IMG/VR virus record: IMGVR_UViG_3300008114_002282
Location: 1 to 57,799 of that record
From: a virus
Length of the DNA stretch: 57,799 nucleotides
Direction: 5' to 3' (one strand)
Shown here in pieces: positions 4,465 to 25,658 of the stretch; position 1 is the first letter of the stretch, and each line of letters opens with the position of its first letter. The translations under genes and the position numbers were made by a program. The notes beneath the pieces are model-generated. The model made no database searches and was not told the origin of the DNA. It saw nothing but the letters and a program-made list of their open reading frames with translations.

Positions 4465-4835
4465 TCACTGTAAGATTTTTCTTCAATAAATCCTGAAGAA
4501 AACTTCAAATTAATTTCTTTTTTAATTTTAGCACGAACATCATTAGTATAGTAAACTGAACGAGCAAGACTAACAAATTCTTCATCAAATTCTTTTTGTC
4601 TTTCTTTGTCCCTAATATCATCTTCAATAACCCAAAGGTCTTTATTAACTGACAATAATTCTAAATACTCAGGTGATAAAGTTGAAATACCCAAATCATT
4701 TTCAACCACAGATAAAAGATACTCATACTCTTTTATGATGTTATCTAATTTATTTGGGTCGGTAATATTTTCCTTTTTAATTTGAAGAATTGTTAATTTG
4801 TCAACAATTTCTCCATGTGATACTTCTATATTCAT
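4455..4835 (-). CDS. DUF6165-like small helical protein
   Basis: This 126-aa protein begins with a pattern (EVSHGEIVDKLTIL) that resembles the DUF6165 family, short helical proteins of unknown function often found beside polysaccharide genes. It is the last gene of the minus-strand operon; its start overlaps the stop of the upstream 701-aa transferase by 4 bp, so the two are coupled. Its 3' end overlaps the convergent oxygenase gene by 10 bp. The family assignment is from memory of the N-terminal signature, and no enzymatic motif is visible. Confidence 0.7.
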   Translation of the reverse strand: MNIEVSHGEIVDKLTILQIKKENITDPNKLDNIIKEYEYLLSVVENDLGISTLSPEYLELLSVNKDLWVIEDDIRDKERQKEFDEEFVSLARSVYYTNDVRAKIKKEINLKFSSGFIEEKSYSDYL

Positions 4836-6937
4836 AATAAATTTTGTATTTGTGATATAACCATATCTGCGGTTATAGATTTATGACATTCAAATTGTCT
4901 TTCAGTATCTTTATGTTCAGGACACCAATTCCAATCTCCTTTATTAAATAAGAACATGGGATTATTCCAACAACCATTACATACTGACATATTTATAATC
5001 CTTGTACAATTTGAAGTAAATTCATGGTCAGGTTCTGTAAAATTAGAAATCATCACAACGTGTTTACCTAAAGCCCAACTTAACCAAGATAATCCACTTG
5101 AAAGACCGACAACAAATTGACTGTGATAAATTACATTCATTGTATTATCAATTGAGTCATCTTCTAATGAATCGGCACCTTCGTATTTATCACCATTTTG
5201 TGAGATATTAATTACTTTATATCCTAATGATTTAAAATGTCTAATTAAATCAACCCATCCTGTTGGATTGTTCCAATATTTACAACCAGCGGTTGAGTTG
5301 GTTGCAATACAAATATACTTTTCAGGGTAAGGTTTTTCTTTTGGTATAAAATCAATATTTGTTTTAATTTCTTTAAATTCTAACCCAAGAATATTACTAG
5401 CGGTTTGTTGTAATGGTATTGTATTAGGTAATGTAGGTTCTAAATCACGATTATAAAACCAACCCAACTTATACATTGCGTATATGTTTTTAACTTCAAT
5501 ACCTGGCGTAACAAACTCAATTTCAGGGTATGATTTTTCAAATAAAAAATTCTTGAAAGTTGAACAAATCACATGACATTTATGTTTTTTTCTAAACTCA
5601 TCAACATATGGTACCCAAGCAATTGAATCACCTAACGAACTTGAATCAATTGCAATATAAACTCTCATACCTTCAAAAGGAAACTTACGGTTAAGTATTG
5701 TTCCTGATGAATTAGAAACTCTGATTCTCCAATCTTTATGAAATTTCTTATTTGATTTTGTCCACATATTACTTCTTATTTTTGAAGTATATGTTAGTGT
5801 GTTATCATCTTCAAAAAAATCTACGGTATATTCATCGTCAAGATTACTTTGAACATCAACAGTTGGACCATCAACAAAATGTACATTTATTGCCAATTTT
5901 TCATTTAACATTGGTTTTAAATCTTTTGTTTCGTTAAACGCTTTAATAAATAAATTTTTGGTAATATCAGAAGTATATTCTTTTTGTATTTTAAGAACAT
6001 CACCATACATGTTTAACAATCTTGTACAAACTGTTGACCAATCATAATATTTTCTATCAATTTCGGTATTAATCATATAATGAGCATAGTTCTCAATAAC
6101 TTCCAATATACCTTTTTTAACTGATTCAGTTGACCTTTCTACTTTATACAAACCTTCAATTTTGTGGTTACCATCATATGTCCCAACAACAGGTACTCTA
6201 CATGAAATTGATTCCAATAATGTTAAATTTGGGTGACCAGCTTCCAATTCTGATGGGTGAAGGAATATTGAATGCTCTTCAATTATTTTTAATAATTCTT
6301 CTTCACTTGGATTGTGAGAAATTATGTTTAATTTACCGTACTCCAATAAATCAGGATTTGCGTTGAAAAAATTCATATTGTTAGGAGGACCAACAATTGT
6401 AATATCCATGTTTAATTCTTTAGCGGCTTCAATAGCGTATCTAAATCCTTTTCTATCTATGGTTTGGTCATCAGCATAACCATTATTTGCTATACATAAT
6501 AATTTGTGTTTAAAATCTTCCTTATAAGGTAAATCAAAAAACTTGGTATCAACACCATGTGTTAAATAAAATAACTTATCAGTTTCCTCAAAGTAATCAA
6601 CTAAAAATTCTGCATGTGTAAAGGATACTATTGAACCTTTAATGGCTTCTAAATTTTGTTTATATGTATGAGAATCTTTACCATGTCTAACAACATGATG
6701 GTCATGTAATGAAAAGATGTATGGTATACCTCTTTTTTGAGCTTCAATACCTAAATTGGCAACGTGTAAATGAATGATATCTGTATTATTTACATCAACA
6801 TCATTTAAGTATTTAATATCACATACGTGACCCATTTCTTCAAATTGAAGTTTATAGTTCCATATTACTTTTTCAATTGCTCCCCAACCATTTGGAGGTA
6901 TTGATATAAGACCTGGTGTTACTTGTGTTATTTTCAT
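4832..6937 (-). CDS. Fused GT4 glycosyltransferase and TibC/BAHT-like iron-finger O-heptosyltransferase
   Basis: The 701-aa protein has two catalytic parts. Residues 1 to about 320 form a GT-B, GT4-like transferase with an N-terminal PNGWGAIEK segment and a C-terminal acceptor/donor region ending in LTLLESISCRVPVVGT. Residues 340-430 are a beta-rich module shared with other operon proteins. Residues 430-701 match bacterial autotransporter heptosyltransferases: SSGLSWLSWALG at about 613-624, then four cysteines (653, 656, 672, 684) in a CNGCW...CP...FEC arrangement. In TibC the equivalent cysteines hold iron in an assembly finger. TibC enzymes put heptose on Ser/Thr of adhesins in the cytoplasm. 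The fusion suggests successive addition of two sugars; acceptor and sugars are inferred. Confidence 0.85.
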   Translation of the reverse strand: MKITQVTPGLISIPPNGWGAIEKVIWNYKLQFEEMGHVCDIKYLNDVDVNNTDIIHLHVANLGIEAQKRGIPYIFSLHDHHVVRHGKDSHTYKQNLEAIKGSIVSFTHAEFLVDYFEETDKLFYLTHGVDTKFFDLPYKEDFKHKLLCIANNGYADDQTIDRKGFRYAIEAAKELNMDITIVGPPNNMNFFNANPDLLEYGKLNIISHNPSEEELLKIIEEHSIFLHPSELEAGHPNLTLLESISCRVPVVGTYDGNHKIEGLYKVERSTESVKKGILEVIENYAHYMINTEIDRKYYDWSTVCTRLLNMYGDVLKIQKEYTSDITKNLFIKAFNETKDLKPMLNEKLAINVHFVDGPTVDVQSNLDDEYTVDFFEDDNTLTYTSKIRSNMWTKSNKKFHKDWRIRVSNSSGTILNRKFPFEGMRVYIAIDSSSLGDSIAWVPYVDEFRKKHKCHVICSTFKNFLFEKSYPEIEFVTPGIEVKNIYAMYKLGWFYNRDLEPTLPNTIPLQQTASNILGLEFKEIKTNIDFIPKEKPYPEKYICIATNSTAGCKYWNNPTGWVDLIRHFKSLGYKVINISQNGDKYEGADSLEDDSIDNTMNVIYHSQFVVGLSSGLSWLSWALGKHVVMISNFTEPDHEFTSNCTRIINMSVCNGCWNNPMFLFNKGDWNWCPEHKDTERQFECHKSITADMVISQIQNLL

Positions 6938-7932
6938 ATTGTTTTAATAAATTCGCTAAATGATTTTAATATTTGGTTATATTCTTTTATGTGAAAATCA
7001 TTATCAAATAAAAAATTTGGGTCAACAAACCCAAAATTATCAGTATAATCTTTTTTCCAATTAAAATATAGAAAATTTTCATTAGAAAAAAACTCATCAA
7101 ATGAATCAACACAATATTTTCTTTCATTATTTGTTCCTTTAATTAATTGACGTTCTTTTTCTTCATCAATTAAACCATTTTTAATTGGTGGGTTTGGGGA
7201 CATAACAATCACTTTATTATTTGGATGTTTGGAAATAAAAGTCTGTAGAAATTCTTTATATTTAAATAATAACTTATTTGTTAAATGAGAAATTGAAGTA
7301 TTTTTTTCTTGAGATGATTTAGGTAGACCATATCTAGTATCTATTTCACCTAAATAAAAGGCTATAATATCGCCATCTTCTATGGGTAATAAATCAATAA
7401 ATGATTTATTATCTTTATTTAAAAATCTATGTAAACTTAGTGAGGGGTGACTATACCTTATGGGTAAATAATCATGTATTGGTTCAGGGGTGTACTCATC
7501 ATTACCAAAAGTTCCCCACACATTTGAATCACCAATAATCCATAATCGTTTATAATTCATTGGATATTGTTGTGATATGTTTCTTAATGGTAGATAGTTC
7601 TTATAAAAGAAAAACTTTTTTTCAAAAACTAAATAATCTTCTATATAACATCTTAAATGTACCCCACCTTTAAAACCCAATCTATTATGTTTCCCAAAAT
7701 GACTACCAATCGTAAAATTAACAAAATAATTTGGACCATCAATACAATTTACATTAATAATTTCGGGTGAGTATGGTATATCAAAATACGGGTCTGATAT
7801 CTTTACAGATATTGTTTGTTGTTGGTCATTTAACCCTAATGTTGTAAAATTAATTTTTAAAATTGCATTATTTATAGCAGTTTCAACATCAATATTATTA
7901 ATATTGATTAATATTTTTTCTTGTTTTAACAT
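6934..7932 (-). CDS. SGNH/GDSL-type hydrolase or acyltransferase with N-terminal beta module
   Basis: The 332-aa protein carries a GDSN block I (Gly134-Asp135-Ser136), a Gly in LGEID (about 195), an Asn in SPNPP (247) and a C-terminal DFH pair (Asp312, His314). This is the usual order of SGNH esterase/acyltransferase motifs, although block V is slightly atypical. Residues 1-115 contain a segment (NCIDGPNYFVNF) resembling the beta-rich module of the heptosyltransferases. It overlaps neighbours by 4 and 7 bp within the operon. Removal or addition of an acyl group on the phage glycan is inferred. Confidence 0.72.
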   Translation of the reverse strand: MLKQEKILININNIDVETAINNAILKINFTTLGLNDQQQTISVKISDPYFDIPYSPEIINVNCIDGPNYFVNFTIGSHFGKHNRLGFKGGVHLRCYIEDYLVFEKKFFFYKNYLPLRNISQQYPMNYKRLWIIGDSNVWGTFGNDEYTPEPIHDYLPIRYSHPSLSLHRFLNKDNKSFIDLLPIEDGDIIAFYLGEIDTRYGLPKSSQEKNTSISHLTNKLLFKYKEFLQTFISKHPNNKVIVMSPNPPIKNGLIDEEKERQLIKGTNNERKYCVDSFDEFFSNENFLYFNWKKDYTDNFGFVDPNFLFDNDFHIKEYNQILKSFSEFIKTI

Positions 7933-8498
7933 TTAATAAAACTCCCCCAAAGGACTTGTTTAAATTCATTATAAAGATATGGTCTTAATTTTAATTCGGG
8001 AAGATATCTTTCTAAATTTTTATAATGAGATTCGGAAATTGTTGGCCAATCTAATTCGGTTTTTATTTTTTCGTACTCTTCGGGTGTTTCTTCATAGTCA
8101 TGTAACATAACAACATCACCCGTTTTAAGATACCTTGAGAATAATTTAAATTCAGTTTCTTTATCACCACCATCACATAATAATAATGTTTTTTTTGGTT
8201 GACTAATTAATGATTTTATTTCACCAATCACGTCAACATCAAAACAATCGGCAACTCTTAAGGTGGTATCTTTAATATTATTAACTTGTAAATAATCAGG
8301 ATTATTATCGTATGATATTATTTTACATGAATCAGATTTATTTTCTGATAACCAATATGTAAAAGCACCTGTAAAAGTACCAATCTCAATAATTTGTTCA
8401 AAGTCTTTTAATATTATTGAAAAGGCTTTAGGTATGTGTTTTGTTTGAGCGGTTCTAAATTGTTGGTCACCAATTGTAACCCATAAAAAGTTTTCCAT
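7926..8498 (-). CDS. SAM-dependent class I methyltransferase (Methyltransf_24 / cephalosporin-hydroxylase-like)
   Basis: The 190-aa protein has a Rossmann SAM-binding motif I (IEIGTFTGAFT, about residues 37-47), an acidic end to strand 2 (YDNNP), and a later LLCDGGDKETEF plus DVVMLHDYEE, the pattern of the Methyltransf_24-type family found in sugar-modification clusters. It is coupled to its neighbours with a 1-nt gap on one side and a 7-bp overlap on the other. Methylation of a glycan hydroxyl is inferred from the operon. Confidence 0.78.
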   Translation of the reverse strand: MENFLWVTIGDQQFRTAQTKHIPKAFSIILKDFEQIIEIGTFTGAFTYWLSENKSDSCKIISYDNNPDYLQVNNIKDTTLRVADCFDVDVIGEIKSLISQPKKTLLLCDGGDKETEFKLFSRYLKTGDVVMLHDYEETPEEYEKIKTELDWPTISESHYKNLERYLPELKLRPYLYNEFKQVLWGSFIKC

Positions 8499-8499
8499 T

Positions 8500-9264
8500 T
8501 TATCTTTCTGAATTGTTTAAGTTGTATGATGAATTATGAATACCTATATGATAACAAATTCTTTCCAAATGTAAAAATGATTTGTATTTTTTTGCAAACC
8601 TTAATGCGAATTCTAATTCAAATGAATCCATATTTCCATTAAAATTATCAATAGTTTTTAATTTTTTAATATCATGTATTGCTGGTCTAAATCCAAAGTA
8701 TGGCCAATTGATTACTTTAACCCAATCACCTTCAGGTAAGTATTTCATTTCAACCTCATCTAAAAATAATGGTTCATTTAATTCGTGTTTTTCAGAATAA
8801 TACCATTCCCAAAAATCACCAATTATTCTTGGTGTAAATAATTCTGGTGGGAATATCTTTTTTTCCCATGAATAGCCAACTAATGCAATATCGTCATTAT
8901 TACTTAATAAATTAATACCATCTAATAATCTAAAATTTTGTTGAAATAACCAATCATCCTCTAAATGAAACACATAATCAAAATTAAATTTTTCATTGTT
9001 TGTTTTCCAAACTTTCATAATCTCCAAATGTCTTTTTCTGGTATTAAAATCTGAAGGTTGAAATGTTATTGATGTTAACATCACCTTTGGAAATAATTTC
9101 TTTAATAAAAGAAACATTTCTTTCCTTTCAAAATCTGAAGATGAATCATCATAATGAAAGATGTGTGATATCAAATCACGGTCAACACAATTATTATAGA
9201 AAGAATTTATTGTTCTTTCAAACAATGAAAATCTTTTACACGTTGTAATGGTTAATGATATCAT
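8500..9264 (-). CDS. GT2-like family glycosyltransferase
   Basis: This 254-aa GT-A fold protein starts with a typical MISLTITTCKR strand, has an Asp pair at 39-40 for nucleotide binding, and a DxD-type LEDDW motif at about 101-105. It is short, about the size of the catalytic domain alone. It overlaps the upstream 584-aa gene by 4 bp. The sugar transferred cannot be told from sequence. Confidence 0.82.
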   Translation of the reverse strand: MISLTITTCKRFSLFERTINSFYNNCVDRDLISHIFHYDDSSSDFERKEMFLLLKKLFPKVMLTSITFQPSDFNTRKRHLEIMKVWKTNNEKFNFDYVFHLEDDWLFQQNFRLLDGINLLSNNDDIALVGYSWEKKIFPPELFTPRIIGDFWEWYYSEKHELNEPLFLDEVEMKYLPEGDWVKVINWPYFGFRPAIHDIKKLKTIDNFNGNMDSFELEFALRFAKKYKSFLHLERICYHIGIHNSSYNLNNSER

Positions 9265-11015
9265 TTAATATACATGTTAGCATATACATTGTTATTTGTT
9301 TCAGAATATAGAAATCTACCATCTTCATACACATCAATTTTTTCTAAACCATCTTTTGGAATATAGTATGACCAACTATGTTTTCCACTAACAGATTGAT
9401 TAAATGTTTGTTCAGTTCCGTCATTAAAATATGATATAACAACTCTATTTTTTGGTGTATCTGTATAGTTGTAAGATACAACAGCCAAATAGTTTGTTAA
9501 TGTTTTTACACTATCAATATTTCTATATACTTTATATATTCTTGTTGAACAACCTTCATACTTGGGGGATATGTTACTAATTGAAGTCTCAGTATTCCAT
9601 AAGGTACCTTCAAAATCAATTGTTTGTTGGTCACCAGTTTTTCTTAAAATGTGTGAGTCAATATCATTATCAATAATATTCTGATACAAATATTCTTCGG
9701 CAATTTTAAAATCTAAATTACCAAACCTATCCATTAAATAATTTACATAATCTTGTTCACATGTAATTCGTTTAATGATTTGTAAAAAATACTCAATCTC
9801 ACAGTAAAAATAGTGAAACGAAACATCTTTTCTTGAGTCATTTTCATTAAAATAAAACAATCCTTTTTTACCATTGTCGTGACACAATGATGGTACGGTA
9901 TTTATGTAATCCCAAGATGACTCTGAAAGTTTATCATCAACTTCTAATCTTTGAAAGTGGGTATAACCTAATGACTTTGCAAATATTAAAGAATTGAATA
10001 GATTAACTAATACAGGTAGACCATGTCTTTGTAAACCTGGCATAACATCAAAAATATCAATATCATCTCTCAAATGATATAAAGTCACATTACTAACATT
10101 TGTATAATCATTTTCAAACAATTTATTATTTGAGTCGTATAAGTAATAGTTTGTTTTGGATAAAATTTCAGGTTTAATAATTGTGTTAGATACTAATAAA
10201 GTATCTTGATTATTTCCTTTTAAAATATCCAAAAATTGTGATAATTTAACTTCAACTTCTTTGTTATGAACAAAAGAATCTATGATTGTAATTGTTTTAT
10301 TTTTCATTTGATTGTGTCTGTTATATAGGTAATCTCTTACGTATTTATGTGTTTGTTTTTTTTCTTCAGGTGAAAGTGATGTTAAAACACCTTGACCATG
10401 TTCTCTGTATATACCACCAACCCATTCATCACCACGTATCTTACCTCTTAATGATAACTCATAATTGACAGGATAATCTAAATAAGGTAATGACATCATG
10501 TATGGTTTAATTAAATCTTTGTAATTTCTAAACATTCTTCCAAAAGATACGTAATTCTCTACAAATAAGTCTTCTGTTGTTATGTCTTTAATTGGACTAC
10601 ATAACCATGTATTAGTTTTGTTGGGGGTATAAATACCATTAGTGTATAACCAATAACCTGTACAATGCATTGAATAGTCAGGGTTTGCATCTAAAAAATC
10701 AACTTGTTTTTGTAATTTATACTCATTAAAAAAATAATCATCTCCATCTAAATAGGCGATATATTCACCTTGTGCTTGCGATAATAAAAATGGTATGTTT
10801 TTATGAAAACCTAAATTTTCAGTTGCACGAAAATGTTTTAAATTGGGATAAAAATTAGTTAATCGCTCAATAATTTGCTCTGAACCATCTTGAGAAAAAT
10901 CATCTCTAACTAATACCTCAAACTCAAAACTTGTTTTTTGCCATAAAGCGGACAATAACGCTTGTTCTAAATAATTCGCAAATTTATAAGCGGGTACTAT
11001 AACACTTACTTTCAT
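9261..11015 (-). CDS. Two-part GT2 glycosyltransferase with large C-terminal domain
   Basis: Residues 1 to about 240 are a canonical GT2 domain: MKVSVIVPAY start, Asp pair at 38-39, and LDGDD at 89-93 as the metal-binding motif. The remaining 340 residues begin with a second strand-rich start (TITIIDSFVHN) and contain a long mixed alpha/beta region whose family I do not recognise, ending in a beta-rich tail. The C-terminal part may be a second transferase or an acceptor-binding domain. It overlaps both neighbours by 4 bp (ATGA type), so it is co-translated with the PglD-like and GT2 genes. Confidence 0.82.
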   Translation of the reverse strand: MKVSVIVPAYKFANYLEQALLSALWQKTSFEFEVLVRDDFSQDGSEQIIERLTNFYPNLKHFRATENLGFHKNIPFLLSQAQGEYIAYLDGDDYFFNEYKLQKQVDFLDANPDYSMHCTGYWLYTNGIYTPNKTNTWLCSPIKDITTEDLFVENYVSFGRMFRNYKDLIKPYMMSLPYLDYPVNYELSLRGKIRGDEWVGGIYREHGQGVLTSLSPEEKKQTHKYVRDYLYNRHNQMKNKTITIIDSFVHNKEVEVKLSQFLDILKGNNQDTLLVSNTIIKPEILSKTNYYLYDSNNKLFENDYTNVSNVTLYHLRDDIDIFDVMPGLQRHGLPVLVNLFNSLIFAKSLGYTHFQRLEVDDKLSESSWDYINTVPSLCHDNGKKGLFYFNENDSRKDVSFHYFYCEIEYFLQIIKRITCEQDYVNYLMDRFGNLDFKIAEEYLYQNIIDNDIDSHILRKTGDQQTIDFEGTLWNTETSISNISPKYEGCSTRIYKVYRNIDSVKTLTNYLAVVSYNYTDTPKNRVVISYFNDGTEQTFNQSVSGKHSWSYYIPKDGLEKIDVYEDGRFLYSETNNNVYANMYIK

Positions 11016-11584
11016 AACATTCTTGTATTTGCTCCAACGTAAATTCCTTCTTTATTAATGTTTTTAACAATACCAGTGTTTAAACCTATTGTTACATTAT
11101 CAACAACTGATAATTTTTCTTTAATTGATGAATTAGTTCCTAAATAAACTTTATCACCTATTGTGACATTTCCTGAAACAATAGAACCTGGCATTGCACT
11201 AAAATAATCACCAATGATACAATCATGACCAATATGGTTACTACGATTTAATAATGTGTGTGAACCTAATTTAATATTAGTTGTTAATATTGAATAAGCA
11301 CCAATAAAACTACCATCACCAATTTCTACATCATCCATGATAATAGCTGTGGGATGTATGAATGTAAAATATTTTGTGTTTTTTGGTAATCTTTGTATTA
11401 TATCGTATCTATCTTTAGAGTTTGCAACTGCAACCATTACAACATGTTTATCAGGTTGTAATGAAGATAATGGTAATGTATCTGAGTTAACATATTCGTC
11501 ATCAACAAATCTTTTTAATTTAACACCCATTTGTGACATAACTTCACGAGCGTGACCACCATTACCAACTAAAACTTTAATCAT
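11012..11584 (-). CDS. PglD/NeuD-family sugar O/N-acyltransferase
   Basis: The 190-aa protein starts with a dinucleotide-like GNGGHAREV loop characteristic of the PglD/NeuD N-terminal domain. From about residue 80 it shows hexapeptide repeats of a left-handed beta helix (IGDGSFIGAY, IGHDCIIGDY, VTIGDKVYLG); the His in GHD is the usual catalytic base. These enzymes use acetyl-CoA to acetylate amino sugars or sialic acids. The adjacent downstream DegT aminotransferase gene would supply the amino sugar, so the pair could make an N-acetylated amino-deoxy sugar donor. Confidence 0.88.
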   Translation of the reverse strand: MIKVLVGNGGHAREVMSQMGVKLKRFVDDEYVNSDTLPLSSLQPDKHVVMVAVANSKDRYDIIQRLPKNTKYFTFIHPTAIIMDDVEIGDGSFIGAYSILTTNIKLGSHTLLNRSNHIGHDCIIGDYFSAMPGSIVSGNVTIGDKVYLGTNSSIKEKLSVVDNVTIGLNTGIVKNINKEGIYVGANTRML

Positions 11585-12225
11585 TGTTTATAAATTTCAA
11601 ATTTTGATAAATCAGGATATGGTAATTCTAAATCATTATTTTGTTTTTTAGTACCATCAATATTATAGAATTGATTCATTAGTAGTAAACCACGTGTTGC
11701 TAACTCAGGCATCATATAAAAGTTCCAACCTAACATATCCAAGTTATCATCATGATATGAACATTCACGTCTACCACTATATCTTGCTCGTTTAAACCAG
11801 TGATACGCATCTAAACTATCTGTTAGTATTGCACCACCTTTACTTAGTTTAAAGTGTTTATATGGTCCTGTAAATGAAATACACATGTGACTATTTGGTT
11901 TATACATGTCAGCAGTAAATGACAATGCTGAATCCCAAACATTTGAACCAATTAATTGATAAGAACCTTTAATTGTTTTTCCATCAACAGGTATAAAATC
12001 AACTTTTAATCCTGCGTGTATTATTTCACAAGGAACTGAAGGATATGTTCTATTTGGTATTGATATTTTTTCACTTTGAATTGATTTGGTTATATTTTTT
12101 TCATAATACAATGCTAAAAATAATGCGTTACTCATGTTATCTAATGTAACAACATAAGGTGCTCCAGTATATCTACCAAGTTCTTTTTCAAAGTCATCTG
12201 TTATTTTATAAACTCCGTTTGCCAT
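11581..12225 (-). CDS. Short DegT/DnrJ/EryC1-type sugar aminotransferase
   Basis: The protein shows DegT-family landmarks: an N-terminal GAPYVVTLDNMSNAL cofactor-binding segment, a PLP-lysine region SFTGPYKHFKLSKGGAI with Lys123 as the likely Schiff-base residue, and a YSGRRECSYH segment after it. At 214 aa it is much shorter than the usual 360-400 aa and lacks most of the C-terminal small domain. It overlaps the PglD-like gene by 4 bp, a pairing seen in pathways for 3- or 4-amino sugars. It could be a minimal active enzyme or a partner for a host subunit. Confidence 0.8.
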   Translation of the reverse strand: MANGVYKITDDFEKELGRYTGAPYVVTLDNMSNALFLALYYEKNITKSIQSEKISIPNRTYPSVPCEIIHAGLKVDFIPVDGKTIKGSYQLIGSNVWDSALSFTADMYKPNSHMCISFTGPYKHFKLSKGGAILTDSLDAYHWFKRARYSGRRECSYHDDNLDMLGWNFYMMPELATRGLLLMNQFYNIDGTKKQNNDLELPYPDLSKFEIYKQ

Positions 12226-12227
12226 AT

Positions 12228-13070: not shown

Positions 13071-15031
13071 TATTTTTTTCTTTTAGTGATTAAAACACCG
13101 TGAGGTTCATTAACACTAACCCTATCTTTACGAGTCATATGTAGTGTGAATAATTCACATTCAAATCCAAATTTAGTTAACTTATCCACCATTGGTATCA
13201 ATTCACCATTATTATTACCATGAAACTCAATAATAAACTTTTCAATCATATTCATTTGTTCATCAGTTAATGATTCAATTAACTCATATTCACCACCCTC
13301 AATATCACATTTAAATAATGAAATATTTGTTAAATTATTTTCGTTAACAATCTCATCAAATGTTATGGTTTCTAAGTCCATAGTTGAATCTAAATCACTG
13401 TACGATGGATTTGAGTTATCAAAAGTATGAGTACCAATTGTTGAATTTTTTGTTGAGTAATGAAACTTTATGTTTTGTTTCTTACCTGTTAAAGGTGCTA
13501 AATAGACCGGTGATTTTTCATAATCAGAACCTAAAACTGTTTTAATATTTTTATCCAATAAAGGATTCGCTTCAACTAAAATAACTTTTTTAGCGTCTTT
13601 AGCGTACATGTACTTAGCAAATAAACCAATATTAGCACCAACATCAATTACCGTATCCATATCATTTAGGTTAAAACTACCGTAAATGTCATCACTAAAG
13701 AATTCTATATAATTCCTGAATGAACAATCAAATGGTTCAAAATTTACTTTAGGTAATCTTGGAAAAATATCATTTACAACAATTTCGTGACTGTATTTTA
13801 AATTGTCATTTTGGTCATAAAAATCAAGTGAGAAACCTCTAAAAGTTGCCAATTGATGGAACTTTATGATATGTTGAGGTATTGGTATTACAAACCAACC
13901 CAAAGGTGAGTCGGCTTTAAAATTCATCCAATACATTGGTGCTCCCGATGTTAAACATTTGAACGATACTTTATAATCAATTGGGTCGTAACCACTGTAA
14001 AAAATATTGATTTTGTTTTCATCTTTTTCGTAGCTGATGTGCATTAAGTTTTGTAAATTATCCATGTTAAATTTTTTAAGTAGTAAGTTTGTATCCTGGT
14101 TTATATCTCCAGTAAGATATGTGATGTTATCATAAATGTCATATTTACCACAGTAAACATCTAAATTAAACATCATCATTGGCATTTTATATTCCAACGC
14201 TTCTTTAATTGCAATTGGATTTAATTCTTTATTATTTCGGTCACCTTTTGATGCGAAGAAGAATAAATCAGCCGCTTGTAAAAAGTTATAGACATCATGT
14301 CTTTCACCCCAAACAATACAGTTATCAGGTTTGTTATTCATTAAAGGTTCCCAATAATCTTTAAAATTACCAGCTTGATTACCTAAGAAGTGAAATCTAA
14401 ATTTATGACCTTGTAATTTACGAGCAATTTCAAACAAATAACCCTGATTTTTTCTTTGGGTAAATAAACCAACATTTACAATGTGTATACAATCTTTTTC
14501 AAGACCGAGTAATTCTTTATATTTTTCTTGGTCTCTTGATTTGAAATCAACAGGGTATTCAATAACTTCGTATGGTATATCATATACTGAATATCTGAAA
14601 GCGTTAAAAGGACTAACAAATAAAAATTTATCAGGAAACCATCTTTTATTTTGAACAGGAAATGATGAATCGTGCGTAGTTTCAAATACTTTATATTTTC
14701 TTTGTTTGTTATAAACAACCGCAGTTATTTCATCCTCTAAAAAATATTCAGGAAATTCTTCTAAACATACTAAATCAGGGTCAAACGATGTTAGTAATTC
14801 AGTGAAGTGTTCTTTTCTTCTACTATCATCTAATGTAATCAATTTGTCTTCACCAATAAGTTCCAATACTCTATTTCTTTGTACATTAAATAACCACGCA
14901 TGATTATGGTGTTCAACACATAAAATATCATATTCATCTTTTAATAAAGAAATTTTATTTACCAATACTTGAGGTAATCCACCTGTTGATAAGTGAGGTG
15001 TAAAAAATAATAGTTTTTCCTTGTTATTCAT
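13070..15031 (-). CDS. Fused GT4-like glycosyltransferase and FkbM methyltransferase
   Basis: Residues 1 to about 330 form a GT-B transferase (start FFTPHLSTGGLPQVL, nucleotide-binding half with NVGLFTQRKNQGYL at about 195-208, and a PIAIKEALEYKMP motif). Residues 335-440 are a strand-rich linker module. Residues 460-653 are an FkbM methyltransferase with VIDVGANIGLFAKYM, VILVEANP and FKCDIEGGEYELIESL. A single chain that adds a sugar and methylates the product or terminal residue is the natural reading, as in chain-terminating O-antigen enzymes. It overlaps the carbamoyltransferase gene by 1 bp. The acceptor is not known. Confidence 0.85.
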   Translation of the reverse strand: MNNKEKLLFFTPHLSTGGLPQVLVNKISLLKDEYDILCVEHHNHAWLFNVQRNRVLELIGEDKLITLDDSRRKEHFTELLTSFDPDLVCLEEFPEYFLEDEITAVVYNKQRKYKVFETTHDSSFPVQNKRWFPDKFLFVSPFNAFRYSVYDIPYEVIEYPVDFKSRDQEKYKELLGLEKDCIHIVNVGLFTQRKNQGYLFEIARKLQGHKFRFHFLGNQAGNFKDYWEPLMNNKPDNCIVWGERHDVYNFLQAADLFFFASKGDRNNKELNPIAIKEALEYKMPMMMFNLDVYCGKYDIYDNITYLTGDINQDTNLLLKKFNMDNLQNLMHISYEKDENKINIFYSGYDPIDYKVSFKCLTSGAPMYWMNFKADSPLGWFVIPIPQHIIKFHQLATFRGFSLDFYDQNDNLKYSHEIVVNDIFPRLPKVNFEPFDCSFRNYIEFFSDDIYGSFNLNDMDTVIDVGANIGLFAKYMYAKDAKKVILVEANPLLDKNIKTVLGSDYEKSPVYLAPLTGKKQNIKFHYSTKNSTIGTHTFDNSNPSYSDLDSTMDLETITFDEIVNENNLTNISLFKCDIEGGEYELIESLTDEQMNMIEKFIIEFHGNNNGELIPMVDKLTKFGFECELFTLHMTRKDRVSVNEPHGVLITKRKK

Positions 15032-16614
15032 TATAGCTTACTAAAAATAAAATGTTCTGTAGCAATATAATCAACACAACCTTCAAGTAAATGTTTTATA
15101 ACTTGACTTGGGTAGTTATTGATTGGTTCCCCGTGAGCATTAAATGATGTGTTTAATACAACAGGAATATCGGATAACTTATAGTATTCTGATATGATAC
15201 TATGAAAATTTGGGTTATTATTTTTATCAACAGCTTGAGGTCTTGCAGTTTTATCCTTTGGATGAATAACTGCTGGAATCTTATCAACCCATTCTTTTCT
15301 GGTGTCATAACACAATGTCATAAATTCTGCTGCGTATAGTGACCTATCTGCGTGAAAGATAGTATTAATATGTTCTTTTAACACACTTGGTGCAAATGGC
15401 ATAATTTCATTACGTCTTAATTTTTTATTTAACAATACGTGTGTTTTGGTGTCGGTAGGTCTAGTAACAATACTTCTATTACCTAACGCTCTTGGACCAT
15501 ACTCTGTTTTACCATAAAATAAACCAACAACTTTTCCTTCATCTATTAATTCGGCAACTCTACTATGTGAAGAAGGTTCAAAATAAATTTGACCTGGATA
15601 GTTATTTATTTCTGACATCCAATCGTCACCATTAAATTCTGAACCAAAAAATACATTATCTAATTTAAGTGGTAATAACAATTCACCAAGTTCATTTGCT
15701 TTACACAACGCAGCACCGGTAGACAAACCACCATCACCCATTGAAGGGTGTATGTAAATCTCCTCAAAGAAATTAAAACTATTGATGGATTGATTTAATT
15801 TTACGTTAGCAAATAAACCACCATTAAATGTTACTTTATTATAATCAGGATATCTGGATTTCAAATCTCTAAGATATTGCCACATTAATTCTTCGGTGTG
15901 TTTTTCTAAACAAAATGCTAAGTCATTTCTATTTTCTTCAGAATCAAAATAACCTGAATTTTTTAATTTATCAACAAAAATAAAATCAAACAATGTTTCA
16001 GAATTTGATGGTCCAAATGTTAAGTCACCATTATATTTTATAATGTGTTTAAGATAGTTGTACAACATTTCATTGTATTTACCATGAGATGCCATACCAA
16101 CGACTTTACCTTCATCTTTAAACATCTGCCAACCAAGTAATACGGTTACTCTTCCCCACAAACCAGCTAATGATGTGGTTGTTGGAACGTTTTGTGAACT
16201 AACAACTTCATAGTCACCATTGTCACATAAGTAAACTTTTCCTCTACTTCTATTACCTTGACCATCATGACTCACAGCCAATACTTTACCCTCAAATCCT
16301 GATGTAAAATATGCTCCTAAAGCATGACATTTATGGTGTGAATAACTAGTTGTTTTATCAATTAAACATATGTTATCATCTTCAATCTTATAGTGTTTTG
16401 GTAATGCAAAAGCAACATGGTCACAATTTTCCAATGTAACACCAAAGTTCTTTTCAATGAACTCTAAACCTTTAATTGGGTGTGCCCAATAACTATGTAT
16501 TGCTTTAATACCTGTTAATTTTTCTTCTTCAATAGCACAAACTAATTTACCATCAATTACTAATGCAACTGATGAATCGTGACCTCCGTGATGTATTCCT
16601 ATAATTGTACTCAT
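15031..16614 (-). CDS. NodU/CmcH/TobZ-family O-carbamoyltransferase
   Basis: The 527-aa protein has the two-domain NodU architecture. The N-terminal Kae1-like ATPase part starts IGIHHGGHDSSVAL and has the metal-binding SHHKCHALGAY segment and a SHDGQGNR loop. The C-terminal carbamoyl-transfer part carries YGKTEYGPRALGNRSI, a near-diagnostic motif of the family, and VVLNTSFNAHGEPI. Length is close to the usual 540-600 aa. These enzymes use carbamoyl phosphate and ATP to carbamoylate sugar hydroxyls. It overlaps the next upstream gene by 4 bp. Confidence 0.93.
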   Translation of the reverse strand: MSTIIGIHHGGHDSSVALVIDGKLVCAIEEEKLTGIKAIHSYWAHPIKGLEFIEKNFGVTLENCDHVAFALPKHYKIEDDNICLIDKTTSYSHHKCHALGAYFTSGFEGKVLAVSHDGQGNRSRGKVYLCDNGDYEVVSSQNVPTTTSLAGLWGRVTVLLGWQMFKDEGKVVGMASHGKYNEMLYNYLKHIIKYNGDLTFGPSNSETLFDFIFVDKLKNSGYFDSEENRNDLAFCLEKHTEELMWQYLRDLKSRYPDYNKVTFNGGLFANVKLNQSINSFNFFEEIYIHPSMGDGGLSTGAALCKANELGELLLPLKLDNVFFGSEFNGDDWMSEINNYPGQIYFEPSSHSRVAELIDEGKVVGLFYGKTEYGPRALGNRSIVTRPTDTKTHVLLNKKLRRNEIMPFAPSVLKEHINTIFHADRSLYAAEFMTLCYDTRKEWVDKIPAVIHPKDKTARPQAVDKNNNPNFHSIISEYYKLSDIPVVLNTSFNAHGEPINNYPSQVIKHLLEGCVDYIATEHFIFSKL

Positions 16615-17255
16615 AAATTCATTATATCGTTAAAAAGTTCTCTTGAGTTAAATGGTAACCAGTTATTTTTATGTTCTGATGATACGTTTGGTTTTGTATG
16701 GTTACTACAAAATAAAAAACCACTTCCCCATTCACCTAAAGATTCTCGTTTAATGTTAAACCTACCAATTTTAAATCTTGAATAGTATTTTGTATTTAAT
16801 CTACTAATGTCGGTTAAAGGTAAGAATGTTATTTTAGAATCAACATATTGTTGTGATAATCTGTCTGAAAATTTTGAATATATTGTAAGATTTGTTCTTA
16901 CTTTATCTCGATAATCAATTGATTGTTCTGCCCACGTACATGACTCTTTATATGAGTCAGTATCAAATGTTAAGGCTACTTCTTTATCTGATTCATTAAA
17001 TGTATGTTGAGTAACTAATACTGGATAGTTATTTTTCCAACCCCAAATTTTAACTCTCCACTGATTTCTAAATTTTTTACCTAAATGTACAAACCAATTT
17101 TCGGGGGACATTATGTTATGATTGACCAACGCCCAATCATTTCCGTAATTTTCATAAACCTCAACAAGATACCTGTGACTCCAAGTATCCCATATGTTAA
17201 TAAAAACACCGTCAACAAAGTTTATAGTACAATTTATATTATTAAAATCCGTCAT
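16611..17255 (-). CDS. Unrecognised protein built on the operon's shared beta-rich module
   Basis: This 214-aa protein has no catalytic motif that I recognise. Its first 100 residues (CTINFVDG start, later NW...KF...W.VKI) follow the same pattern as residues 340-430 of the 701-aa transferase and residues 1-95 of the 396-aa transferase. The C-terminal half is charged and aromatic. It is coupled by 4-bp overlaps to the carbamoyltransferase and to the TibC-like gene. A stand-alone acceptor-binding or scaffold subunit of the glycosylation machinery is a guess. Confidence 0.7.
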   Translation of the reverse strand: MTDFNNINCTINFVDGVFINIWDTWSHRYLVEVYENYGNDWALVNHNIMSPENWFVHLGKKFRNQWRVKIWGWKNNYPVLVTQHTFNESDKEVALTFDTDSYKESCTWAEQSIDYRDKVRTNLTIYSKFSDRLSQQYVDSKITFLPLTDISRLNTKYYSRFKIGRFNIKRESLGEWGSGFLFCSNHTKPNVSSEHKNNWLPFNSRELFNDIMNL

Positions 17256-18442
17256 ATTAAATTATTTTCTTTTATTTTATCAATTACCATTTTTGGTGAT
17301 ATTTTTCTTGAACACTCCCAGTTTTTATTTTCGGGACATAATGTTTTTTCAAACACAGTAAATTTATCGGCATGTTTTTCAGAGTTCCAACAACCATGAC
17401 AAACATCTTCATTGATTACTCTTATACAATCTTCAGTAAATTCATTGGTTGCTTTTGTCACACCAGAAATCATAACTACTTTTCTACCACATGCCCATGC
17501 TAACCAAGCAAGACCTGAACTCACACCAATAAAAAACTCACAATGATGTAGATACCACATACGGTCAGTTAATGGTAAATTACCATTTCTTTTTGTAACT
17601 TTTTTTAAGTCAGTTTTTTCTTTTGAAATTGAAACCACCTCATAACCTAATGAAGTTAATTCATTTACTAAAGTTTGCCAACCAACTTTATTATTCCATT
17701 GTTTAATTTCACCTGACGCAAATTCAGAAATACAGACATATTTTTTTTGAATTGGTCTTTCATTATTTTCACAAATTAAATGAGGTCTCATCTCTTTTAA
17801 TTCTAAACCAAGTACTGATGGTGCAAAATGTTGAAGAGGGATTAATGATGGATGATACGGTGATTCATTTTTTTTCCAATATGTTAAGTCATCAAAATGA
17901 AGATATTTTTTCTTAAATAATAACTTACGTAAATTGATATGTTCTTCATTTGGAATGCCGTATGATATTTTATAAGTTGCGTAAAATTTAGAATCATTAA
18001 ATTCGTAAGTATCACCACGAACAATTGTAAAATCACTATAAGATTTTTCAAATATTGAAGGAATAAAAGTTTGGAATGTAATATTACAATTATGAATTTT
18101 ACCAAATTCTTTAACATATTCAACCCAAGCCAAATTATCACCAATTGGTGTGTTTGTAATTGCGATTAATACATCTTTATCTTTTAAATCTAAAACTTCC
18201 TCATGAATAATTCCCAAACCATTTTTCATAACAACCACTTTCCATTCAACATAATAATTGATTGCGGTTTTTGTCCAATAATTTGGTTTTAAAGTGTCTG
18301 AATGTAAAAGTTTATTTGTTTTATTATCTAAGAATAAAACTTCATAAGTTTCATCTTCAGGATATTCCTTATCGGGAACACCAACAATCTCAACTTTGGC
18401 GCCAAGATGAAAATCTACTTTTATTTTAATTTCCTGTTCCAT
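17252..18442 (-). CDS. TibC/BAHT-like iron-finger O-heptosyltransferase
   Basis: At 396 aa this matches the usual size of bacterial autotransporter heptosyltransferases (about 400 aa). It has an N-terminal beta-rich module (1-95), a GT-B heptosyltransferase core with TNTPIGDNLAW and GVSSGLAWLAWACGRKVVM (about 307-324), and a C-terminal finger CHGCW...CP...WEC with Cys348, 351, 369 and 377. In TibC such cysteines bind iron and the enzyme assembles into a dodecamer that heptosylates Ser residues of adhesins. With the HldD-like epimerase and a GT9 gene in the same operon, protein heptosylation is the best-supported reading. It overlaps the GT9 gene by 17 bp. Confidence 0.88.
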   Translation of the reverse strand: MEQEIKIKVDFHLGAKVEIVGVPDKEYPEDETYEVLFLDNKTNKLLHSDTLKPNYWTKTAINYYVEWKVVVMKNGLGIIHEEVLDLKDKDVLIAITNTPIGDNLAWVEYVKEFGKIHNCNITFQTFIPSIFEKSYSDFTIVRGDTYEFNDSKFYATYKISYGIPNEEHINLRKLLFKKKYLHFDDLTYWKKNESPYHPSLIPLQHFAPSVLGLELKEMRPHLICENNERPIQKKYVCISEFASGEIKQWNNKVGWQTLVNELTSLGYEVVSISKEKTDLKKVTKRNGNLPLTDRMWYLHHCEFFIGVSSGLAWLAWACGRKVVMISGVTKATNEFTEDCIRVINEDVCHGCWNSEKHADKFTVFEKTLCPENKNWECSRKISPKMVIDKIKENNLI

Positions 18443-19439
18443 AAATTTCTATTACTTTTTTGAAAATTTGTTCATCACTCGGATGACATTCAAAAGTTTC
18501 TTTTTTCTCTAAACAATTAATCAAAGGTGCAACACCTTGAATTGAACCCCACTCCTCAATACCATATTTTAATTCTGAAGCACAAAATATATCACAACCA
18601 CCACCAACATAATGAAACTTATATTGTTGTGAGTTTTTTCTATATGGAATCCTCCAATATGGGTTAATTGAAGAACCAAGTTGAATAATGTGAGCGTCTG
18701 TTGTACCTGCCAAGTGTAACAATCCTGAATCCATTGTTATAAAACAAATTGAATTTTGAATTAAATGCCAAGCCTGAGAGATATTTGTTTGATTCATTAA
18801 GTTCAACCCTAATTTAATATCAATATCAAATCCTTTCTTTTCAATATGCCAAAAACCAACTTCATCTGTGTCTTTACCAATTGAAACAACAGCAATTCCC
18901 ATTTCATTTAATTTGGTTGTTACTGATTGCCATTTATCAAAATCCCAAGTACGAGATTGCCACGTGGTTGCTGGATGTATCAATACATATTTTTCAGGTA
19001 AACCTTCAATAGGTTCAAATGGGTCTGAATAATATTCACATTCCATTTCAGTGGGTAATAAGTTAAAACCTAAATTCATGGCATGGAATTGACGAATATC
19101 AATTCTAGCATGTTTTGACTGAACTCCTTTATCATTTTGTCTACCAACATTATAGAAAGAACTATGGATTAGGAAGTTTTCTCTTAGGTAGTCAAAGTTA
19201 ATTGAATCGGGACGATAAGTGTTTTTAATATATGGATTGTGTTTAAACAATTCAGGATGTTTCGTAATTAGATTTAACTTACAACCATATGCTTCTGAAA
19301 CTTTTTTAATAGTGGGGGTTGAACAAAGAGCATCGCCCATTGAATAACATTCTGACAAATCAAAGTATACCGCATCTCCAACTTCTTGAGCTGGTACGTT
19401 CCATAAAAATTCGTTTCTTGTATGCCAAATTTTTCTCAT
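18426..19439 (-). CDS. GT9-family heptosyltransferase-like protein
   Basis: The 337-aa protein resembles ADP-heptose:LPS heptosyltransferases: an N-terminal YSMGDALCSTPTIKKV loop, a nucleotide-binding half beginning KYVLIHPATTWQSRTWDFDKW, and ITMDSGLLHLAGTTDAHIIQLGSS. It also ends in a four-Cys region (CDIFC...NC...FEC), which may bind metal like the iron finger of its neighbour. It overlaps the next downstream gene by 17 bp and follows the FkbM-like gene with a 23-nt gap. Heptose transfer to a protein-linked sugar is inferred. Confidence 0.86.
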   Translation of the reverse strand: MRKIWHTRNEFLWNVPAQEVGDAVYFDLSECYSMGDALCSTPTIKKVSEAYGCKLNLITKHPELFKHNPYIKNTYRPDSINFDYLRENFLIHSSFYNVGRQNDKGVQSKHARIDIRQFHAMNLGFNLLPTEMECEYYSDPFEPIEGLPEKYVLIHPATTWQSRTWDFDKWQSVTTKLNEMGIAVVSIGKDTDEVGFWHIEKKGFDIDIKLGLNLMNQTNISQAWHLIQNSICFITMDSGLLHLAGTTDAHIIQLGSSINPYWRIPYRKNSQQYKFHYVGGGCDIFCASELKYGIEEWGSIQGVAPLINCLEKKETFECHPSDEQIFKKVIEIYGTGN

Positions 19440-19462
19440 AAATTAAATAATAATAAATCAAA

Positions 19463-20173
19463 TTAACATATCCAAACTAATGGAAAATCTTGAAGTTCTG
19501 GATTATTTGGCATATCCAATTCTGTTGGCCATTGACCTCTATCAAAATGAAATGCTTCAAACAATCTATCATTAATAAATGTTAACTCCATTGTATCAGG
19601 TACCGCAATCCACCATGAACCAATCATTGGTGCGGAATTGTTTCCGTGTAAATGTGTTAAAGTAAAATGGTTTGTAATTTTTTCTAAAATTTTGGTTGCT
19701 CTTGGACGATATTCATTAACATCACCAGTCCAATGTATTTCCAACACAATACCAATCACATTTTTTGATAGTTCTTCAATATTGGTATTTTCAAAGAATT
19801 CATACTCGGCACCCTCAACATCAATTTTTAAAAAAACATTTTTATCTTCATCACCATTTTCTTTAAGATGGTCAAAAAAATGTTTTTTATCGTTTTCTTT
19901 TATGTGACTTAATCCTTCTTTGTGAAAAATTAAGTTGTCGTTAGGGTGTGTAAAATCAACGGTGTGGTCATATAAATGAACAGGTTTAGATGTTCTATTG
20001 TGAAAATCTAGTTCAAAATCACAATTATATTCAACACCATATGTGTACAACACATCAGCCTTGTCCAATATTGTTTGATTTACAATATAACCACCATCAT
20101 TATTACTACCCAATCTAACTTTAGTATCTAAAACACCATATGGTCTTAGAAAGTTTACAAAATCGTCTCTCAT
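19463..20173 (-). CDS. FkbM-like SAM methyltransferase
   Basis: The 236-aa protein carries NDGGYIVN near the N terminus, LYTYGVEYNCDFELDF as the likely SAM site, and FLKIDVEGAEYEFFEN, the hallmark FkbM strand-4 motif. The C-terminal part is rich in Trp and His. It sits second in the operon, overlapping the HldD-like gene by 4 bp. O-methylation of a sugar in the phage glycan is inferred; the classical GANxG loop is replaced, so the exact donor contact is less certain. Confidence 0.78.
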   Translation of the reverse strand: MRDDFVNFLRPYGVLDTKVRLGSNNDGGYIVNQTILDKADVLYTYGVEYNCDFELDFHNRTSKPVHLYDHTVDFTHPNDNLIFHKEGLSHIKENDKKHFFDHLKENGDEDKNVFLKIDVEGAEYEFFENTNIEELSKNVIGIVLEIHWTGDVNEYRPRATKILEKITNHFTLTHLHGNNSAPMIGSWWIAVPDTMELTFINDRLFEAFHFDRGQWPTELDMPNNPELQDFPLVWIC

Positions 20174-20976
20174 TTTAAATAATTCATATATTCAGTTAAT
20201 CCTTTTTCAAGTGTGTATTTTGGTTCCCAACCCTTCATCCATTTTAATTTATTGGAACAAGTATAAAATTGATAACCTTTTGGAATTATATCTTTTGATG
20301 TGTATCCAAAATCAATTTTCATAATATTCAATATTTTTTCAAATGATTCTGCAACGCCTGAACCAACATCATAAAACTTACCCAATAACTTTTTATAGTT
20401 TTCAAATGCAAATATGTTTGCTGATATAATATCTTTAACATATATAAAATCTCTTTTTGGACTACCAGGAAATAATTTAATTTCATCACCTGATAAATTC
20501 TTTTTGTGCATTTGATATGCGACAGATGACATAATTCCTTTATGTTCTTCACCTGGTCCATACACATTAAAGTATCTAAGTGCAATTCCACCATTATTAA
20601 TAATGTAATCTTCGGCAATATATTTGCTCCACCCGTATAAGTTAGATGGGAATTCATTATTGGTTCCATAATTTGCTGCTGATGACGAATAAATCAAAGG
20701 AATTTTTTTTGATTTACAAATGTTTGATATGTGTTTACTAAACTCATAATTAACCAACATCATATAATTAACGTCTTGTTCTAATGTGTTTGAACAAGCG
20801 CCAACGTGAAATACAGATTTAATGTCTAACCAAAATAAATTTGAGACATCTGACTTCCATGTGTGAGAATTAAATACATCCTCATTAATTTCAATAACCT
20901 CAAATTGTTTTTCTAATTCTACTTTCAAATTAGACCCGATAAAACCTTTTGAACCTGTTAAGATTACTTTTTCCAT
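20170..20976 (-). CDS. hldD: ADP-L-glycero-D-manno-heptose-6-epimerase (HldD/RfaD-like)
   Basis: This extended short-chain dehydrogenase (268 aa, about 40 shorter than E. coli HldD) has the NAD(P) loop TGSKGFIG (Gly8, 11, 14) and catalytic YGWSK (Tyr114, Lys118). HldD-specific stretches are visible: FHVGACSNTLEQD, YMMLVNYEFSK, RYFNVYGPGEEHKG, GSPKRDFIYVKD and GLTEYMNYL. HldD converts ADP-D-glycero-D-manno-heptose to the L-glycero form. It is the first gene of the 16-gene operon, and its promoter region is the 61-nt divergent gap to the LamG gene; a TATTTTTA box on the minus strand ends 6 nt before ATG. It would supply the donor for the heptosyltransferases downstream. Confidence 0.88.
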   Translation of the reverse strand: MEKVILTGSKGFIGSNLKVELEKQFEVIEINEDVFNSHTWKSDVSNLFWLDIKSVFHVGACSNTLEQDVNYMMLVNYEFSKHISNICKSKKIPLIYSSSAANYGTNNEFPSNLYGWSKYIAEDYIINNGGIALRYFNVYGPGEEHKGIMSSVAYQMHKKNLSGDEIKLFPGSPKRDFIYVKDIISANIFAFENYKKLLGKFYDVGSGVAESFEKILNIMKIDFGYTSKDIIPKGYQFYTCSNKLKWMKGWEPKYTLEKGLTEYMNYLK

Positions 20977-20990: not shown

Positions 20991-21023
20991 CGAAAGAAAT
21001 GATTAAAGGAAAACATTTTGTGG

Positions 21024-21031: not shown

Positions 21032-21037
21032 ATTACA

Positions 21038-25356: not shown

Positions 25357-25367
25357 TAAATAAAATT

Positions 25368-25655: not shown

Positions 25656-25658
25656 ATT

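Follow-up and report, generated by a model that had tools for sequence, protein, structure and literature searches.

A putative phage glycan operon with two thumbless TibC-type glycosyltransferases beside a Gly-Thr-Ser repeat fibre gene

The virus record IMGVR_UViG_3300008114_002282 of the IMG/VR collection, a linear sequence of 57,799 bases whose full length is called the window here, carries on its minus strand a tightly packed run of 16 genes (positions 4455-20976; Table 1) that begins, in transcription order, with a gene for an HldD-like epimerase. Two proteins encoded in this run, of 701 and 396 aa, are real relatives of the bacterial O-heptosyltransferase TibC, and such relatives recur in many phages. 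The original prediction had interpreted the run as a module with which the phage makes ADP-L,D-heptose and places heptose on its own repeat proteins. The observations on which it was built are exact throughout: the motif SSGLSWLSWA is located at residue 613 of the 701-aa open reading frame (ORF) and SSGLAWLAWA at residue 308 of the 396-aa ORF, the four Cys residues of a C-terminal finger lie at 653/656/672/684 and 348/351/369/377, respectively, and the operon contains, besides the leading epimerase gene, one for a GT9 glycosyltransferase.

Table 1. Genes of the minus-strand run and the neighbouring repeat fibre gene, with the evidence for each assignment
Feature	Positions	Strand	Evidence
GTS-repeat fibre, C-terminal Peptidase_S74 chaperone, 5' end outside window	2-2881	+	repeat reading; PF13884 1.9e-17
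DUF6165 protein	4455-4835	-	PF19662 9.6e-10
Fusion, 701 aa: N-terminal GT4-type glycosyltransferase (1-318) and predicted thumbless TibC-type O-glycosyltransferase (347-701) with four-Cys iron-finger motif	4832-6937	-	TIGR04414, PDB, model
332-aa protein	6934-7932	-	without Pfam match
Methyltransferase-like protein	7926-8498	-	PF01728 7.3e-6
254-aa protein	8500-9264	-	without Pfam match
GT2 glycosyltransferase	9261-11015	-	PF00535 2.3e-25
Hexapeptide (LbH) acyltransferase-like protein	11012-11584	-	PF00132 2.9e-16
Short DegT-type aminotransferase-like protein	11581-12225	-	PF01041 3.3e-10, residues 7-91 only
FkbM-type methyltransferase	12228-13070	-	PF05050 3.4e-6
GT4 and FkbM methyltransferase fusion	13070-15031	-	PF00534 9.9e-8, PF05050 8.5e-15
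NodU/NolO-type carbamoyltransferase	15031-16614	-	PF16861 2.2e-51; phrog_1601 8.3e-87
Truncated TibC-type relative, 214 aa: beta-barrel and half N-lobe; without catalytic Asp, C-lobe, iron finger	16611-17255	-	TIGR04414, alignment, model
Predicted stand-alone thumbless TibC-type O-glycosyltransferase, 396 aa, Arg286 equivalent retained	17252-18442	-	TIGR04414, PDB, residues
GT9 glycosyltransferase	18426-19439	-	PF01075 8.3e-16
FkbM-type methyltransferase	19463-20173	-	PF05050 2.1e-6
HldD-like NAD-dependent epimerase, 268 aa	20170-20976	-	TIGR02197 186.4 bits (equivalog cut-off 274.6); PDB HldD 1eq2 3.4e-38

Both proteins match the profile of the Aah/TibC O-heptosyltransferases (TIGR04414; curated cut-off 200 bits), the 701-aa protein with 304.6 bits (E 9.2e-91) and the 396-aa protein with 246.4 bits (E 4.3e-73), the latter over model positions 11-373 of 374. 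Because both E values are tiny and both scores exceed the curated cut-off, these are not chance matches. TibC was the sole match at E <= 0.01 for either protein in a sequence search of the PDB (4.5e-58 for the 701-aa protein, 2.8e-36 for the 396-aa protein). Their finger Cys residues align exactly with Cys339/342/358/370 of TibC, which serve as iron ligands according to the published account of that enzyme (PMC4358343). The structure model of the 701-aa protein, folded with an alignment of 13 viral relatives, reached a mean predicted local distance difference test score (pLDDT) of 83.3 and a predicted template modelling score (pTM) of 0.54; with the latter value, the placement of the two halves of the fusion relative to each other is unsure. 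Residues 347-701 display the beta-barrel and GT-B fold that the original prediction had led one to look for, superimposing on TibC with a Z score of 38.4 and a root-mean-square deviation of 2.1 A over 348 residues, and residues 1-318 resemble GT4 enzymes (BshA, Z 27.4). The 396-aa protein is predicted to be of the TibC/Aah type by its profile match, the PDB sequence search and its catalytic and iron-ligand residues, and the 701-aa protein by the profile, the PDB search, its residues and the structure model. Phages do use glycosyltransferases on DNA (PMC12619734), and one might suppose that the enzymes of the window modify phage DNA bases. We regard this as highly improbable, since the key enzymes fall into a protein-modifying family, with a TibC fold modeled for the 701-aa protein and the Cys finger present in both, and none of the operon genes was recognised as a base-modifying partner.

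A scan with the 701-aa protein as the single query retrieved 37 viral loci, seven of which are near-copies of the window, and 34 of the 37 records scored above the TIGR04414 cut-off. Scanning IMG/VR with an alignment of 19 domains yielded at least 569 relatives among the 598 pattern-matched stretches listed, and in about 85,000 genomes of bacteria and archaea 36 of 53 pattern-matched stretches encoded a relative; the patterns of the viral and the cellular scan derived from a phage-made alignment and differed slightly between the two sets, so that the ratio of viral to cellular relatives is biased toward phages and is no measured abundance. Three named phages surpassed the curated cut-off as well: the Microcystis phage Mel-JY01 (317.4 bits), LR756501 (304.7 bits) and LR756504 (223.6 bits). 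Judged by sequence, many phages that infect bacteria of lakes and other waters carry TibC-type relatives. In a tree of 103 rows, computed quickly with FastTree only and containing some long branches, a branch with support 100 unites the 701-aa protein with other viral rows, 58 viral rows in all; the 396-aa protein pairs elsewhere with its copy from a sister phage, and TibC groups with rows from Acetobacteraceae and Trinickia.

For counts of neighbouring genes, 104 loci were reduced to 63 at 90% identity after removal of the near-copies of the window (L004-L010, L041-L047, L089-L094). The enzyme ORF has at least 600 aa in 43 of these 63 loci; 13 of the long ORFs (690-735 aa) align end to end with the fusion of the window, and 29 outside this comparison have at least 850 aa. 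The GT4 and TibC-type halves occur as separate ORFs in the same order in 15 further loci, adjacent to each other in 11 and with one gene between them in four. A DUF6165 gene accompanies the TibC-type gene in 25 of the 63 loci and a gene of the GT9 cluster in 29. The DUF6165 protein itself is small and strongly conserved, with 37 invariant columns in 18 sequences.

The viral enzymes differ from TibC in a consistent manner. Residue-level comparisons, like the tree, used matches above 100 bits that span 220-480 residues; among the 63 loci, only L018, which is truncated, thereby had no row. None of the 67 viral rows, which include both window proteins, departs from TibC at Asp110, Lys230 or Trp305 (TibC numbering) or at any of the four Cys of the iron finger; in an earlier alignment of 33 rows, Asp110 was absent from two truncated rows and fell into a gap in one other. 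The tip of the beta-hairpin thumb of TibC is gapped in 63 of the 67 viral rows, again including both window proteins, and the thumb region, 33 residues long in TibC (252-284), comprises 23 residues in the fusion and 24 in the stand-alone enzyme. TibC requires its thumb to assemble into a dodecamer; thumb mutants (F265D/V266D) form dimers and have lost activity (PMC4358343), and the phage enzymes, which lack the thumb, probably adopt another oligomeric form. Arg286, which contacts adenine and is required in TibC (PMC4358343), is retained in only five of the 67 viral rows and missing from 62, with Thr in 42 and Val in 13; its equivalent is Thr in the 701-aa protein and Arg in the 396-aa protein. 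The donor contact at Thr226 is kept as Thr or Ser in the viral rows, and both window proteins have Ser where TibC has Pro300. Among 35 cellular rows, a few of them near-identical or from one locus, Arg286 is present in 27, among them all 24 rows with a thumb, and absent in eight of the 11 thumbless ones. The phage enzymes thus appear, from their aligned residues, as a subclass of the TibC family that is thumbless and mostly devoid of Arg286, and that is new here. The Cys finger, which the original prediction took as the hallmark of bacterial autotransporter heptosyltransferases, does align with the iron ligands of TibC; the equation with these enzymes goes too far in that the thumb is missing and Arg286 is lost in the 701-aa protein. 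The same enzyme, dodecamer and donor as in TibC are consequently not to be assumed.

The run encodes a third relative that had escaped the original prediction, the 214-aa protein. It matches TIGR04414 model positions 49-157 with 23.5 bits, and its structure model (pLDDT 72.3) consists of the barrel and half of the N-lobe and superimposes on TibC with a Z score of 13.9, an outcome favoured by the presence of the full enzymes in the alignment used for folding. The Gly-Asp of the catalytic site is lost, and a sister phage possesses a 40% identical copy (L048:11089-11736); the protein is hence probably a dead but retained partner. We had also considered that one beta-barrel might be common to many operon enzymes, which could then assemble into hetero-rings. 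This idea was rejected: a barrel profile, built with both full window enzymes among its rows, matched besides these two just one operon protein, that of 214 aa (E 4.5e-5); for the FkbM protein at 12228-13070 it reached E 0.097, and the remainder was noise.

As to the donor sugar, the claim that the phage makes ADP-L,D-heptose is not borne out beyond the HldD-like epimerase, which stays below the equivalog cut-off of TIGR02197 yet has HldD as both its best family and its best PDB match. Matches to the HldE kinase, the HldE adenylyltransferase and GmhA numbered zero in the window record, which is a fragment, so that their absence from the virus is not shown, and GmhB was not searched for. HldE kinase-like genes were present in one of 37 and three of 45 records, and adenylyltransferase-like genes in three of 38 (one with only E 5e-4) and eight of 45; that of G011 (198.6 bits) is the sole one above the TIGR02199 cut-off. 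In a sister phage of the window, G008, genes resembling HldD, the HldE kinase and the adenylyltransferase lie within or next to the cluster, all below the curated cut-offs. A search for HldD, HldE and GmhA turned up no complete phage heptose pathway in the records covered. The simplest plausible reading is that ADP-heptose is supplied by the host. AAH accepts both ADP-heptose epimers and has Ser at the TibC Pro300 position (PMC4358343), and since the window enzymes share this Ser, HldD would not be strictly needed.

Several observations weigh against heptose. GmhA was found in none of 83 records; the HldD-like gene, sought in the window proteins and the first 37 records only, is not generally linked to the enzymes, occurring in ten of the 37 records, seven of them near-copies of the window; and the main warning comes from Arg286, whose replacement by Thr in the 701-aa protein means that the donor may not be ADP-heptose. 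It is therefore possible, although we doubt it, that these proteins are protein O-glycosyltransferases whose Arg286-less phage class uses a nucleotide sugar other than heptose. Such a donor would fit the retention of Arg286 in so few viral rows when compared with the cellular ones, above all the thumbed ones, the missing GmhA, and the company of a small cupin-like gene, recognised by eye, that the kinase/adenylyltransferase pair keeps in G046 and G074; to our knowledge, a cupin-like gene is no part of the ADP-heptose route. It fits less well with the preserved contacts at Thr226 (as Thr or Ser), Lys230 and Trp305, with the close HldD match of the window epimerase, and with the HldD/HldE-like genes of G008 and the adenylyltransferase of G011. 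In two related phages, a cupin-like gene (by eye), an adenylyltransferase gene and a PfkB-type kinase gene stand in tandem (L318:4485-5987 and L319:6581-8092), perhaps a compact route to a non-heptose ADP-sugar.

The fibre gene at the left end of the window is convergent with the gene of the 701-aa fusion, 1957 bases apart, and its product has been proposed as the acceptor. ORFs with Gly-Ser/Thr triplet repeats were found in the fetched flanks of 34 of the 63 non-redundant loci. In a set of 19 contigs made up of the window, G008 and 17 more, a Gly-X-Y ORF, defined by at least ten Gly-X-Y triplets, lies no more than 6 kb from the enzyme gene in 13, the window included, and is convergent with it in 12 of these 13; no Gly-X-Y run appeared in 3190 shuffled control ORFs. 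A random-position test of this proximity over the 19 contigs gave a combined p of 7e-4, and a gene-rank test against other ORFs of at least 150 aa, in the 17 contigs that have a Gly-X-Y run, gave p 2.6e-6; both values are too small, because the contigs are partly dependent and 12 of the 19 already carried a flag for a nearby repeat ORF when they were picked, compared with 34 of the 63 loci. The fibre of the window was likewise known in advance. An initial 12 contigs (11 flagged) entered the first test and five (four unflagged) were added later, without the flagged G057, G067 and others. The sequence used covered the first 120,000 of the 121,804 bases of G055 and the first 40,000 of the 46,814 of G008. 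Across 4229 triplets, X is Thr in 52% and Ser in 30% (together 82%) and Y is Ser in 74% (79% together with Thr), and Pro is outside the eight commonest residues at either position. In cellular genomes, a Gly-X-Y run is present at the locus of four of 11 thumbless but only one of 24 thumbed rows (p 0.026), although some of the metagenome-assembled contigs in this comparison may themselves be viral; a large Ser/Thr/Asn/Gly-rich ORF occurs in 12 of 36 cellular loci.

Since the fibre gene lies near the enzyme genes more often than expected, virion fibres are a sensible target, and their position suggests, without proving it, that the fibre is the acceptor. The following points caution against this conclusion. 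Proximity is no proof of a substrate, as variable genes accumulate at tail-fibre loci and the choice of the 19 contigs favoured those with a known repeat ORF close by. Six of the 19 contigs do not fit, the nearest run being 46 kb away in G074, 48 kb in G073, 18 kb in G035 and 6.4 kb in G034, and G008 and G048 having no run of ten triplets; the 636-kb phage LR756504 has no Gly-X-Y ORF within 15 kb of its enzyme gene. Moreover, the targets of TibC are beta-helical passengers in which the mapped sites are Ser, not Thr (PMC4358343), whereas a Gly-Thr-Ser repeat forms no beta-helix. The proximity might reflect nothing but a shared host-range island in which both gene types collect. We consider this rather unlikely. 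The many different glycosyl-, methyl- and sulfotransferase genes across these loci speak for it, as do the six contigs without close pairing and the enriched sample; against it stand the gene-rank test, the repeated convergent arrangement and the close pairing, which recurs in cellular genomes with thumbless enzymes and in two of the three named phages. These two phages are Mel-JY01, whose fibre gene lies 1.7 kb from the enzyme gene on the same strand and is thus not convergent, and the 735-kb LR756501, in which the distance is 3.7 kb and the arrangement divergent. Mel-JY01, with Microcystis as its named host, carries both enzyme and fibre and thereby makes the claim testable on virions. Of the statement in the original prediction that the phage heptosylates its own GTS-repeat fibre, the fibre part draws support from the proximity in 13 of 19 contigs, and heptose itself stays conjectural.

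Two side observations concern the fibre genes. In the window, a 2-oxoglutarate-Fe(II) oxygenase gene (PF13640; 3865-4464, plus strand) sits between fibre and operon, and its product may hydroxylate the fibre or its glycan. Of the 63 related loci, 16 hold a member of a cluster with a PF13640 match in its representative. In Mel-JY01 (PP395634, L312:1-3049), a plus-strand frame that is open over 1016 codons and encodes Gly-X-Ser/Thr repeats overlies two coding sequences annotated on the minus strand, which were probably assigned to the wrong strand.

The remaining operon genes point to the type of glycan and to where it may be made. The carbamoyl-, methyl-, acyl- and aminotransferase-like genes suggest an elaborated glycan. 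The 332-aa protein at 6934-7932 has, by eye, a GDS motif that we take to be that of SGNH hydrolases. A simple hydropathy scan detected no transmembrane-like segment in the 16 operon proteins (Kyte-Doolittle maximum 1.28, 19-residue window), which fits cytosolic protein glycosylation and argues against a lipid-linked pathway. Genes of the carbamoyl-, methyl- and acyl-transferase type are usual in surface-glycan clusters, and this resemblance raises the alternative that the operon acts on the infected host, glycosylating its adhesins or surface glycans and thereby changing receptors or excluding other phages. The known TibC substrates are indeed cell-surface autotransporters (PMC4358343), and a viral metagenome paper lists lipopolysaccharide (LPS) heptosyltransferases I-III among viral genes (PMC8066274). 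We nevertheless judge this alternative improbable, as no lipid-carrier transferase, flippase, polymerase or transmembrane protein was recognised among the 16 operon genes and what recurs next to the enzymes is a gene for a virion-type fibre. A Pfam scan of 27 window proteins, a subset of its ORFs, showed no autotransporter domain, and a Gly-X-Y fibre stands in its place.

Taken together, we favour with moderate confidence a model in which the run at 4455-20976 is a phage glycan operon whose TibC-type enzymes glycosylate the phage's own repeat fibre while the other genes elaborate the sugar. The two TibC-type enzymes, one stand-alone and one fused to GT4, would attach the first sugar to Ser, perhaps also Thr, of the fibre; the fused GT4 together with the GT9, GT2, carbamoyl-, methyl- and acyl-transferase-like gene products would extend and decorate it in the cytosol before assembly. 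The donor would be ADP-heptose from the host, perhaps epimerised by the HldD-like protein, and the thumbless enzyme may act as back-to-back dimers in place of a dodecameric ring. A wider and distinctly more speculative extension, which we would not expect to hold in all its parts, is that a large undescribed class of thumbless, probably dimeric viral TibC-type enzymes O-glycosylates proline-poor, collagen-like Gly-X-Ser/Thr tail fibres along their length, that the sugars stabilise the fibre as hydroxyproline does animal collagen and also shield or tune it, and that the dead half-enzyme may be a partner subunit.

If the fibres are indeed sugar-coated, the consequence would be a general phage system of protein O-glycosylation, with glycosyltransferases acting on a new acceptor, and possibly an answer to the question why long, nearly proline-free Gly-Thr-Ser fibres are stable. 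TibC-type enzymes have been known for modifying bacterial adhesins in connection with virulence, and the same family is common in phages here. The original prediction knew of no described phage system of this kind; likewise, we found no description of a phage TibC-type enzyme in the open literature, a search that most subscription papers lay outside. Two papers do record LPS heptosyltransferases among viral genes (PMC10747093, PMC8066274), and related ones treat bacterial enzymes or general phage glycosyltransferases, or simply cite work on them (PMC4358343, PMC12619734, PMC9529941, PMC8498110, PMC12573098).

The window holds further loci of glycosylation and adhesin type. A second glycosylation-type cluster (28059-35088, plus strand) comprises a PF11397 N-acetylglucosamine (GlcNAc)-transferase gene, GT10, a weak GT11 and HtrL_YibB, and is followed by the gene for a mucin-like Thr-Pro (TP) repeat protein of 921 aa (35120-37885, plus strand). 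PF11397 is presumably the family of mucin/Skp1 polypeptide GlcNAc-transferases; homologues of this gene (71-78% identity) are present in six others of the 19 contigs and adjoin a TP-repeat ORF in G061 and G044. As the TP-repeat pattern missed the TP-repeat proteins of both the window and G008, the count beside GT60-like genes is a lower bound. Three tandem paralogues of 714-728 aa (20999-27788, plus strand; DNA stretches 79-84% identical), the first with Laminin_G_3 and carbohydrate-binding domains, are likely adhesin-type virion proteins. A tandem direct repeat of about 300 bases with 96% identity (55672-56251, plus strand) lies inside a 598-aa ORF (55292-57088).

Three known systems bear comparison. 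HldD, the ADP-heptose 6-epimerase (1EQ2), is what the 268-aa window protein matches best in both the PDB and NCBIfam; the window protein is shorter and falls below the TIGR02197 cut-off, in a record without an HldE or GmhA match. Freeman et al. (2023, cited in PMC12619734) are reported to have found that glycosyltransferases encoded by mycobacteriophages act on virion proteins, at the C-termini of capsid and tail-tube proteins. The likeness lies in phage glycosyltransferases that act, or in the window are proposed to act, on virion proteins and the difference in the targets, and we know of no TibC-type enzyme in mycobacteriophage virion glycosylation. The closest relatives are TibC and AAH themselves (TIGR04414; PDB 4RAP, 4RB4), with which the phage enzymes share the beta-barrel, the GT-B domain, the four-Cys finger and Asp110, Lys230 and Trp305, as well as, with AAH, the Ser at the TibC Pro300 position (PMC4358343). 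They differ from both in the missing beta-hairpin thumb and the loss, in most, of Arg286, which the 396-aa protein keeps; in addition, they are phage-encoded, one of them bears a GT4 domain on the N-terminus of its 701 aa, and they are found beside virion-type fibres instead of autotransporters.

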